In this document: positions 7,664-45,688 of the stretch, one piece after another
Position numbering within the stretch: position 1 is the stretch's first letter
How the letters are laid out: every line of letters starts with the position of its first letter
Assembly: GCF_001425665.1 (NCBI RefSeq)
Contig: NZ_LMCX01000002.1
Location: forward strand, 310,001-374,000
Length of the DNA: 64,000 nucleotides
Origin: Yonghaparkia sp. Root332
Lineage (GTDB): Bacteria; Actinomycetota; Actinomycetes; Actinomycetales; Microbacteriaceae
Direction: 5' to 3'
Notes under the pieces: generated by a model
Told to the model about the DNA's origin: nothing
Seen by the model: the letters and a program-made list of their open reading frames with translations, nothing else
Database searches by the model: none
Position numbers and translations under genes: made by a program

Positions 7664-7674
7664 ATACCGGGTAT
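7664..7674. promoter_or_regulatory. Palindrome covering the start codon of the sigma-partner gene
   Basis: ATACC-G-GGTAT is a perfect inverted repeat that includes the first two bases of the ATG at 7673. TATACC just upstream could also be read as a -10. Either a repressor site or part of the promoter; no ribosome site is seen. Confidence 0.3.
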
Positions 7675-9214
7675 GAGCAGCGAACAGCACGACGACGCAG
7701 CCGCCCGCCTCCGCCGGGCGATCGACCAGGGCGCCGCCCCGGTCCTGTCCTCCGACATCGTCACGCAAGCCCCGGGTCGTCGCGCCCCGCGCCTCGTCAA
7801 CCACGGCCGCGTCGCGCGCACGGCCGGTGGCTCCGTGCTCGCCATCGCCGCCGTCACCGCGGCGTCCCTCGTCATCACCCAGCCGTTCGCCCCGCGCGCG
7901 CCGCTCTTCACCGCGGCCGGCGGCGCAGCCGAGCAGTCGGCGTTCGGCGCCGCCGCCGAGTCGAGCGACCTGCGTATCGGCGTCTGGAAGCAGTACGAGT
8001 ACGTCGCCGGCGACGGCCTCGCGACCTCCGGCGGCTCGGGCGCCGCCTACGCGCTCGAGCGCACCGGAGCCCCCGAGGCGACCCTCGACGGGCTCGCCGA
8101 CGTCTTCGACCTCGTGGGCGAGGCGGTGCGTGCGAGCTACTTCGACGAGAGCTACCCCTCGTACATCGTCGGCCCGGAGGACGGCTCGGCGCCCGCGCTC
8201 ACGATCACCTGGGCCGGCACCGCCAGCTGGTGGTACAGCGACCCCGCCGCGAGCGGGTGGACGAGCTGCGCGGTCCCGGGCGACGTCGGGGCGGACGGGA
8301 CCGCCGGAGAGGCTCCGGCTGACGAGCCGCTGCCCGAGATCGCGCCCGAGATCTGCGAGCCCGTGCCGCCCACCGGCGGCGCGATGCCGAGCGAGGATGA
8401 GGCGCGCGACGAGGCCGCCGCGATCCTGACCGCGACCGGGCTCGACGTCGATGCGGAGGACATCCGCGTCACCGCCGACGACTGGCAGACCGTCGCGAGC
8501 GCGAACCTCGTCGTCGACGGCGTAGAGACCGCCCTCGACTGGGCCGTCGCGTGGGGCCCCGGCGGCGAGATCGCGTGGGCCTACGGGCACGCCGTCGACA
8601 TCGTGGGCCGGGGCACGTTCGGCACCGTCTCGGAGCGCGACGCCGTCTCCCGACTCTCCGACGGCCGCTGGTTCGGCGCGGCGGGCCCCGAGTTCCAGGG
8701 CGGAGGCGTCGGCATCGCCGAGATGGCCGGCGACGCCGCCTTCGAGCAGGGGATGCCCGGCACCGACGGCGACGGAGCCACCGGATCGAGCGGCGCGGCC
8801 GTCGACCCCGGCACCGAGCCCGCTCCGGCGCCGACCGACTCGGCCCCGCCCGCGGAGCCCGTCCCGAGCGAGCCCGCGCCCGAGCCTGCACCGGTCGACC
8901 CGGTCGAGCCCGCGCCGACCGAGCCGGAGCCCGTCGCGCCGACCCCGATCGACCCGAGCGAGCCGCCCGTCGTCGAGCCCGAGCCTCTGCCCGAGCCGAC
9001 CCCCGAGGTCGAGATCGTCACGGTGAACGAGGCCGAGGCGACGCTCCTGCTCATGTGGGACTCGGAGGGCGACGCGTGGCTCGTCCCCGGCTACGCCTAC
9101 CGGCAGGCCGAGGGCTGGTGGAGCTCGGTGGTCTCGCTCGTCGAGGGCGTCATCGCCCTCCCCGAGCCGATCGAGTACCGCATCGAGCCGATGCCGCTCC
9201 CCGCTGAGGAGTAG
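7673..9214 (+). CDS. Single-span membrane protein with Pro/Glu-rich linker, possible anti-sigma partner
   Basis: A 513-residue protein of unrecognised family. Residues 1-48 are polar and would be cytoplasmic, 50-70 form one hydrophobic span (SVLAIAAVTAASLVITQ), and the rest would be outside the cell. The outer part has a mixed globular region (about 100-340, with DLRIGVWKQYEYVAG and a DEARDEAAAILTATGLD segment), then a ~90-residue linker of PEP/PAP/EPT repeats (about 365-450), then a short C-terminal domain with LLLMWDSEGDAWLVPGY. Its position right after an ECF sigma gene and its one-span topology suggest an anti-sigma or signal-sensing role; this is inference, since the short cytoplasmic part shows no known anti-sigma motif. 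Confidence 0.75.
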   Translation: MSSEQHDDAAARLRRAIDQGAAPVLSSDIVTQAPGRRAPRLVNHGRVARTAGGSVLAIAAVTAASLVITQPFAPRAPLFTAAGGAAEQSAFGAAAESSDLRIGVWKQYEYVAGDGLATSGGSGAAYALERTGAPEATLDGLADVFDLVGEAVRASYFDESYPSYIVGPEDGSAPALTITWAGTASWWYSDPAASGWTSCAVPGDVGADGTAGEAPADEPLPEIAPEICEPVPPTGGAMPSEDEARDEAAAILTATGLDVDAEDIRVTADDWQTVASANLVVDGVETALDWAVAWGPGGEIAWAYGHAVDIVGRGTFGTVSERDAVSRLSDGRWFGAAGPEFQGGGVGIAEMAGDAAFEQGMPGTDGDGATGSSGAAVDPGTEPAPAPTDSAPPAEPVPSEPAPEPAPVDPVEPAPTEPEPVAPTPIDPSEPPVVEPEPLPEPTPEVEIVTVNEAEATLLLMWDSEGDAWLVPGYAYRQAEGWWSSVVSLVEGVIALPEPIEYRIEPMPLPAEE

Positions 9215-9241
9215 GCGCTCCGACTCGCCCCGTCGCGCGCA

Positions 9242-9287
9242 GCGCGCTGCGCCGCAGGAGCGGCGGCGCAGCCAGGAATGAACACAG
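9242..9287 (-). repeat. tRNA-trailer stem-loop repeat, copy A (3' of tRNA-Gly)
   Basis: A 42-base unit (9242-9283) plus 4 bases abuts the tRNA-Gly gene on its 3' side. It contains a perfect 10-bp stem, GCTGCGCCGC (9246-9255) with GCGGCGCAGC (9263-9272), loop AGGAGCG, then CCAGGAATGAAC. Two more copies lie beside tRNA-Arg at 45527-45615 with the same spacing. In the tRNA transcript it would form a 3' hairpin, perhaps a terminator or processing signal; a dispersed repeat that targets tRNA 3' ends is the alternative. Confidence 0.85.
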
Positions 9288-9358
9288 AGGGGATGACGGG
9301 AATCGAACCCGCACCATCAGTTTGGAAGACTGAGGCTCTACCATTGAGCTACATCCCC
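9288..9358 (-). tRNA. tRNA-Gly (anticodon UCC)
   Basis: A 71-base cloverleaf on the reverse strand. The acceptor stem pairs GGGGATG with CATCCCC, the D arm is GCTC-AATGGTA-GAGC, the anticodon stem TCAGT/ACTGA carries loop CTTCCAA giving anticodon UCC, and the T arm contains GGTTCGATTCC-type pairing. CCA is not encoded. A stem-loop repeat follows its 3' end after four bases. Confidence 0.96.
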
Positions 9359-45040: not shown

Positions 45041-45517
45041 GTGACGGAGTCCGCCCATTCAATCACCATCGCCGGATGGCGAGAGTGGATCGCTCTGCCC
45101 AGCGCCGGCATCCCCTGGATCAAGGCCAAGCTCGACACCGGCGCCCGCACCTCCTCGGTGCACGCGTTCGACGTCGAGCTCGTCGGGGAGGGCGAGGACG
45201 AGCGCGTGCGCTTCCGGATCCACCCCTGGCAGGAGTCGGCGGCGGACGCCGTGCTCGTCGAGTGCCCCGTGCACGACCGCCGCAGCGTGCGCAGCTCGTC
45301 GGGCCATGTCGAGGAGCGCCTCGTCGTCCTCATGGACGTCGCCATCATGGGGCGCCCCGTCACGACGGAGGTCACGCTGAGCAATCGCGACACGATGGGC
45401 TTCCGGATGCTCATCGGTCGTCAGGCGCTGCGCCACGGCTTCGTGGTCGACTCGGCCCGGTCGTTCCTCGGCGGCCGCGCGCCCAAAGAGGTGCGTCGGG
45501 CCAACCGCGGCCGCTAG
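45041..45517 (+). CDS. RimB-like retropepsin-fold protease
   Basis: A 158-residue protein of the putative ATP-dependent zinc protease / RimB family, which has the pepsin-like aspartic fold. The active-site motif is WIKAKLDTGARTSSVHAFDVE with DTGA, and the second half has RPVTTEVTLSNRDTMGFRMLIGRQAL. In Pseudomonas, RimB acts on S6 that RimK has glutamylated. The GTG at 45041 may be leaderless (CAAGAT six bases upstream, a weak -10). The next features are the tRNA-trailer repeats. A palindrome GGGGCGCCCC (45016-45025) lies in the shared control gap. Confidence 0.9.
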   Translation: MTESAHSITIAGWREWIALPSAGIPWIKAKLDTGARTSSVHAFDVELVGEGEDERVRFRIHPWQESAADAVLVECPVHDRRSVRSSSGHVEERLVVLMDVAIMGRPVTTEVTLSNRDTMGFRMLIGRQALRHGFVVDSARSFLGGRAPKEVRRANRGR

Positions 45518-45526
45518 CCGCGCGGA

Positions 45527-45569
45527 GCGCGCTGCGCCGCAGGGGCGGCGACGCGGCCAGGAATGAACA
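45527..45569 (-). repeat. tRNA-trailer stem-loop repeat, copy B
   Basis: A 42-base copy (45527-45568) differing from copy A at a few positions: loop AGGGGCG, and 3' arm GCGACGCGGC, which leaves one mismatch and one G-U pair in the stem. It stands in tandem with copy C at a 43-base period. Confidence 0.85.
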
Positions 45570-45615
45570 GCGCGCTGCGCCGCAGGAGCGGCGGCGCAGC
45601 CAGGAGTGAACGCAG
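45570..45615 (-). repeat. tRNA-trailer stem-loop repeat, copy C (3' of tRNA-Arg)
   Basis: The 42-base unit 45570-45611 equals copy A except for one base (AGTGAAC instead of AATGAAC) and is followed by four bases before the tRNA, exactly as at the tRNA-Gly locus. The perfect 10-bp stem and AGGAGCG loop are conserved. Confidence 0.85.
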
Positions 45616-45688
45616 CGCCCCCGACAGGATTCGAACCTGCGGCCCTCAGTACCGGAAACTGATGCTCTATCCCCTGAGCTACGGAGGC
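45616..45688 (-). tRNA. tRNA-Arg (anticodon CCG)
   Basis: A 73-base cloverleaf on the reverse strand: acceptor GCCTCCG with CGGGGGC (one G-T pair), D arm GCTC/GAGC, anticodon stem TCAGT/ACTGA with loop TTCCGGT giving CCG, T arm CAGG-TTCGAAT-CCTG. CCA is not encoded. Two stem-loop repeats follow its 3' end. Confidence 0.95.

Follow-up and report, generated by a model that had tools for sequence, protein, structure and literature searches.

The window, by which we mean the whole 64,000-nucleotide stretch of DNA analysed (73% G+C), carries three copies of a 42-base unit directly 3' of two tRNA genes, tRNA-Gly(TCC) and tRNA-Arg(CCG). Copy A (9242–9283) and copy C (45570–45611) differ at one of 42 bases, and copy B (45527–45568) stands in tandem with copy C at a period of 43 bases. 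Hairpin 1 of the unit is built by a 10-bp stem and a loop that reads AGGAGCG on the plus strand (CGCTCCT in the tRNA sense), with the tail CCAGGA(A/G)TGAAC beside the stem. The stem-loop repeat described in the initial annotation is therefore real in its stem, loop, tail and tandem period. The four-base gap that it gave between unit and tRNA depends slightly on the program: copies A and C stop 4 bases short of the Rfam tRNA 3' ends (9288 and 45616) and 3 bases short of those placed by ARAGORN. On the far side of each locus, the end of the convergent reading frame 7673–9214 (+) overlaps the remnant of hairpin 2 in copy A, and a frame encoding a Zn_protease domain ends just beyond copy B (Table 1).

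The whole unit behaves as a true repeat, as had been claimed: a 38-base core with at most 3 mismatches matches the window three times, while 100 shuffles average 0.00 matches. In the whole 2.63-Mb genome the same search returns three matches, which are copies A, B and C only, and the backward control pattern returns none; a swarm of copies at this threshold is ruled out. A 19-base core with at most 2 mismatches gives 5 genome matches, three of them the known copies, versus 8 for its backward control. The fold energy of copies A and C is not unusual against a GC-rich background (z −0.74 and −1.07). The spacer of copy A type is also found 3' of other tRNAs.

Table 1. Features at the two repeat loci (window coordinates)
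Feature	Position	Strand	Basis or detail
Copy A, remnant of second hairpin	9207–9245	−	two-hairpin model match spans 9207–9281
Copy A, hairpin 1	9246–9272	−	10-bp stem 9246–9255/9263–9272, loop 9256–9262
Copy A, spacer from tRNA-Gly 3' end to hairpin	9273–9286	−	TGTGTTCATTCCTG in tRNA sense; 14 nt
tRNA-Gly(TCC)	9287–9358	−	ARAGORN, Rfam
Convergent reading frame	45041–45517	+	158 aa from GTG; Pfam Zn_protease PF05618
Copy B, hairpin 1, in tandem with C	45531–45557	−	sequence, core match
Copy B, spacer	45558–45570	−	sequence, two-hairpin model
Copy C, hairpin 1	45574–45600	−	sequence, core match, fold
Copy C, spacer beside tRNA-Arg 3' end	45601–45614	−	sequence
tRNA-Arg(CCG)	45615–45688	−	ARAGORN, Rfam

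Architecture and range of a two-hairpin element

The 42-base units are remnants of a two-hairpin element of ~75 bp. The element as observed is thus broader than first described, the 42-mer corresponding only to its first part, the 5' spacer and hairpin 1. In genus copies the order is spacer, hairpin 1, a linker around GCTTCCGCG, and hairpin 2. Hairpin 1 has five variable pairs on a GCCGC/GCGGC core, hairpin 2 has a variable stem on a CGA-GCGCGG-TCG tip, and the loops, CGCTNCT and GCGCGG, are nearly fixed across copies. Within the window, the two-hairpin model finds hairpin 2 decayed in copy A and not recognisable in copies B and C.

Of 398 family genomes screened by pattern search, 7 matched, and five of these belong to the same genus. 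A covariance model built from 11 copies, ten tRNA-linked and one SRP (R1), finds relatives in 26/26 genus genomes. The two-hairpin model (R2) was built from R1 matches, a seeding that favours tRNA and SRP contexts; the best 100 of 127 R1 matches and all 134 R2 matches were classified. With 150 candidates scored per genome, R2 yields at least 134 matches in 26/26 genus genomes and at least 1–14 in each. At least six lie in this genome: behind tRNA-Ala, tRNA-Gly(TCC), tRNA-Ser(GCT) and tRNA-Arg(CCG), as copy B, and behind the L1 gene. Across the family, under strict filters and with few candidates scored per genome, the element occurs in at least 27 of 398 genomes and at least 12 of 85 genera, including this one (E ≤1e-6). 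Rfam at gathering thresholds reports only tRNA in the window and only tRNA and SRP RNA in 18 loci; at relaxed E, six loci gave only tRNA-overlapping or weak unrelated matches. In the accessible portions of the literature searched, we found no account of the two-hairpin element. A scan of public genomes for an exact 18-mer returned 24 stretches that we rejected as unrelated, the hairpin being absent around every match; 10 of them (eight Stutzerimonas and two Pseudomonas records) share one conserved region.

Both stems covary. In an alignment of 44 distinct copies (19 pairs, 836 pair cells), whose members are related and partly found by the structure model so that the figures lean towards structure, standard pairs fill 94.9% of cells, and doubly changed cells number 110 versus 32.2 in shuffles, a value reached by 0/500. 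Sliding the stem partners abolishes the pairing signal. Changes on both sides affect 10 of the 19 pairs versus 7.7 when shuffled (15/500 shuffles reach 10), and further pair types show no excess (20 versus 19.5). G-U pairs occupy only 6 of 793 paired cells in the element; in the stems that ARAGORN assigns to 66 distinct tRNAs of the same genus the figure is 79 of 1382. Such a scarcity of G-U suggests a constraint acting on the DNA strands, or template-switch repair of the palindrome, no less than it suggests pairing in RNA, and we count it against a simple RNA reading. One position of stem 2 (alignment columns 52/65) is unpaired in 28 of 44 copies though its flanking pairs covary; the mismatch seems to be tolerated or kept.

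Copies at transcript 3' ends

Common to the element sites is a transcript 3' end and a fixed orientation. In the genus, 66 of the 134 R2 matches immediately follow an intact tRNA, on its strand, and only seven tRNA genes are used: Ile-GAT (17), Arg-CCG (13), Ala-TGC (9), Gly-TCC (8), Ser-GCT (7), Arg-TCT (6) and Gly-CCC (6). The reverse-strand control places 0/134 behind a tRNA, and if every genome had 45 tRNAs like this one, ~0.05 would be expected by calculation. The distance from the tRNA 3' end to the match start is −1 to +5 nt in 65 of these 66 cases and 13 in the remaining one, and the stem begins 9 nt after the match start. Another 11 matches lie behind a tRNA 3'-end fragment by script, or 15 with four judged by eye. 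The others stand behind another copy in tandem (14), behind a reading-frame stop (30, e.g. rplA) or elsewhere (13, including the four assigned by eye). The initial annotation had proposed a tRNA-specific element, expecting nearly every copy behind a tRNA and naming many copies far from tRNAs as the finding that would speak against it. The association survives, since other tRNAs carry the element at a similar short distance. Specificity does not: only 66/134 copies, or 77 with the scripted fragment class, stand at a tRNA 3' end, and copies away from tRNAs occur to some extent both in the genus and in other genera.

At the 30 reading-frame sites the stops lie mostly at −2 (7), −1 (12), +7 (6) and +8 (1) relative to the match start (26 of 33 stops). 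A stop also lies in range for 38/134 placements on the reverse strand; taken by itself, the stop class is therefore unspecific and reflects nearby convergent genes. Among the best 100 of 127 R1 matches, 15 of 37 usable non-tRNA matches have a stop 0–12 nt before the stem, as do 344 of 7400 placements made at random; in another seven matches the stop abuts the stem. These sites are not independent, because they fall in few gene families and are mainly orthologues; Pfam confirms ribosomal protein L1, 6-phosphogluconate dehydrogenase, IspDF and UvrD helicase in the genus. A second GC hairpin stands after the element behind rplA. Tandem arrays of the whole element, repeating every 79 and 72 bp, occur at G007:C1:1530390-1530702 (L301/L337) and G009:C1:2186626-2186843 (L116), behind tRNA-Ala and behind a gene with a C-terminus matching IspDF.

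Outside the genus, 41 of 50 matches were read. In 25 of the 41 the stop of a frame of at least 100 codons lies within −40 to +20 nt of the match start, a count that has no control, and 20 of these stops fall at −1 or +7/+8, although for two of the 20, the tandem copies L256 and L276, the frame may be spurious. NusG is confirmed by Pfam for one site; at others we take the C-termini to be those of DnaE, ProB and aconitase. One copy stands behind tRNA-Ile and one behind tRNA-Ala, and in a genome of another genus (G154) an SRP RNA, confirmed by Rfam, ends at the element. Two copies break the orientation rule, L264 (G296) and L267 (G099), which lie on the strand opposite to tRNA-Ala and abut its 5' side; in this variant the second hairpin looks reversed.

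Patchy presence and probable gain behind tRNA-Arg(CCG)

To follow a single site, tRNA-Arg(CCG) was fetched from 26/26 genus genomes by tRNA similarity and not via the element. The element is present in 13/26 and absent or decayed in the other 13, where the tRNA is followed by a brief trailer of unrelated sequence, by palindromes of another kind (G005, G006, G012, G018) or by what may be remnants (G009, G010). Within the genus, decayed copies occur in G000, G001, G004 and G015, the one in G001 behind tRNA-Gly. In G012 (L179) and G018 (L181) a different inverted repeat, of the GTTTGGTG..TTTCTCG type, fills the trailer that holds the two-hairpin element in relatives.

Element presence is hardly clustered on the tree of the convergent gene. 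The tree holds 24/26 rows, with the element-bearing G007 and G015 left out and with G009 and G010 entered as element-free after the motif script missed their tRNA (read later, both lack hairpin 1 and may retain remnants). At least 7 presence/absence changes are required on it, and well supported branches impose 3 of these; the mean for shuffled labels is 8.2, and 132–139 of 500 shuffles get by with as few. G001 and G025, at 94–96% identity in the convergent-gene protein, are the nearest relatives, and their tRNA-Arg trailers, which resemble each other and somewhat those of G024 and G011, carry no element. Behind tRNA-Gly the element is intact in G025 and decayed in G001. The element-free trailers of the nearest relatives and the patchy presence make a recent gain in this genome probable, in keeping with the recent copying suggested by the initial annotation. 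In the simplest account, drawn from comparison with relatives, the ancestral copy behind tRNA-Gly(TCC) was probably copied behind tRNA-Arg(CCG) and then duplicated in tandem.

Known relatives and possible roles

REPs are the closest known kind of repeat. GTAG-tagged REPs, with their BIMEs and REPINs, are described in the consulted parts of two papers as short palindromes rich in GC that mostly follow coding regions, can supply a stop codon, lie between convergent genes and form compound arrangements (PMC3733652, PMC2817692). The element resembles them in these respects and is itself a short GC-rich extragenic palindrome behind genes. It differs in four others. Near the 5' foot of stem 1, the GTAG head occurs in 0/64 copies and GTGG in 1/64 (5 of the 64 have no tail to test). 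REPs usually exceed 100 copies per genome, compared with at least 1–14 here. The Y1/RAYT profile (PF01797) finds no match in 26/26 genus genomes and is positive in 5/14 control genomes. Finally, tRNA 3' ends are a main site of the element, unlike REPs. Because it combines the lack of a GTAG head with low copy number and no Y1/RAYT gene, we call the element REP-like and not a REP. The hosts listed for GTAG REPs are Proteobacteria, Cyanobacteria, Chloroflexi and the PVC group, and the main text of that paper does not contain the word "Actinobacteria" (PMC3733652). CGTC-tagged REPs, as far as that source describes them, are also palindromic and have no dedicated transposase (PMC3733652), but CGTC or its complement lies near the stem foot in only 13/64 element copies, so that the tag is not constant, and the element has two hairpins with the nearly fixed loops CGCTNCT and GCGCGG.

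A palindrome of Methanopyrus kandleri likewise stands at a constant short distance behind many tRNAs, according to the part of the report consulted (PMC5217627). It belongs to an archaeon, has another sequence and follows about half of the tRNAs, whereas the element follows seven tRNA genes and also protein genes. Intrinsic terminators are similar in being GC-rich hairpins directly behind a gene; they carry a U-tract, which is missing at the window loci, and the element differs further in its conserved loops, spacer and second hairpin. A terminator scan of both window loci gave 0 terminator-like sites and no U-tract, so the canonical terminator considered earlier finds no support there. The element-bearing tRNA-Arg(CCG) loci that were read have no run of four T within 110 nt. 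T-runs are missing from the element-free tRNA-Arg trailers read as well, and hence the element is not a simple stand-in for a terminator.

The reading we prefer, with confidence that is about evenly divided, is that the two-hairpin element is a low-copy REP-like palindromic repeat that is retained where transcripts end and may serve there as an RNA 3' cap. Copies would spread between gene 3' ends by some copying process. Once transcribed, the hairpin would close the RNA 3' end and block 3'-to-5' exonucleases after Rho-type or run-on termination, might also pause RNA polymerase, and copies would be tolerated or kept at 3' ends through this end-closing effect. The roles hypothesised for REPs include mRNA stabilisation (PMC3733652), and RNA ends made by Rho are removed by exonucleases (PMC9927376), both as stated in the parts of these sources consulted. 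We take as support for a 3'-end repeat the sense orientation behind tRNAs, SRP RNA and protein stops, the covariation of the stems and the element-free tRNA-Arg trailers of the nearest relatives. Against the cap we count the scarcity of G-U pairs, the two unremarkable covariation measures, the 38/134 reverse placements at stops, the seeding of R1 and R2, the second GC hairpin behind rplA, the lack of T-runs in element-free trailers, and the dispensability of the element, an intact copy being absent from tRNA-Arg(CCG) in 13/26 genomes. If the reading is right, a high-GC bacterial family harbours REP-like repeats and copies them with no RAYT, the enzyme to which their making is ascribed, and such repeats can follow not just mRNAs but also tRNA and SRP RNA genes. 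Species matched for filled and empty sites at the same tRNA would then offer a natural experiment on a hairpin without U-tract at an RNA 3' end. A stronger version, in which a RAYT-unrelated enzyme copies the element specifically onto mature 3' ends (tRNA, SRP RNA, stop codons), perhaps via RNA ends, and the copies then become a host 3'-end module, we regard as unlikely. Insertion at tRNA 3' ends, raised by the initial annotation, is possible and would need a mechanism not found here.

The strongest competitor, appreciably less probable than the 3'-end repeat with a cap and still deserving weight, is a purely selfish, non-autonomous palindromic repeat of REP or MITE type that inserts or survives at gene 3' ends and has no host function. 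Patchy presence at one tRNA (at least 7 tree changes, 3 forced, with 132–139/500 shuffles needing as few), tandem copies (14/134), the decayed copies in G000, G001, G004 and G015, and covariation nearly without G-U all agree with it. It accounts less well for the low copy number of at least 1–14 per genome, for the recurrence of the element at the same seven tRNA genes throughout the genus, and for the failure to find a Y1/RAYT transposase in any of the 26 genomes. Rather improbable is a dedicated tRNA terminator or 3'-processing signal, even though 66/134 copies are directly behind tRNAs, 65 of them starting within −1 to +5 nt of the tRNA end, and the Methanopyrus palindrome, which lies ~10 bp behind tRNAs, is a suggested maturation signal according to the part of that report consulted (PMC5217627). 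Copies behind protein genes already largely refute tRNA specificity (30/134 behind stops in the genus, and 25/41 with a stop close by outside it); in addition, only 7 tRNA genes are used, the window loci have 0 terminator-like sites, and the same tRNA does without the element in 13/26 genomes. We assign a similarly small probability to a DNA-level site between convergent genes, acting in protein binding, supercoiling control or as a cruciform. The near absence of G-U pairs would fit such a site, as would the position of both window loci between a tRNA and a convergent reading frame and the convergent stop at the far end in 38/134. The fixed orientation in the genus, with 66 copies behind a tRNA on its strand versus 0 in reverse, argues against it, L264 and L267 outside the genus being the exceptions.

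Least probable by a wide measure is that the element is what remains of integrase attachment sites located at tRNA 3' ends. What speaks for it is that several genomes have the tRNA 3' end (T arm and acceptor) repeated in front of the element, in G019 twice in series, and that a tyrosine integrase gene (PF00589) ends ~10 bp before tRNA-Arg(TCT) in G007 (L229) and G002 (L230). At both loci, inverted tRNA 3'-end fragments and the hairpin element lie on the other side of the integrase gene, and in G002 a phage holin gene (PF16945) follows. We infer that the fragments are scars of elements that integrated at the tRNA and displaced the old tRNA end with its trailer hairpin downstream; such a shift explains the fragments, and the hairpin need not be an attachment site. 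Moreover, 30/134 copies lie behind a reading-frame stop, and the 66/134 behind an intact tRNA suggest an element with no history of integration at that tRNA. A separate repeat is seen behind tRNA-Arg(TCT) at G006:C1:1857500-1857850 (L228), where five near-perfect 62-bp tandem copies consist of the 3' half of that tRNA and its spacer.
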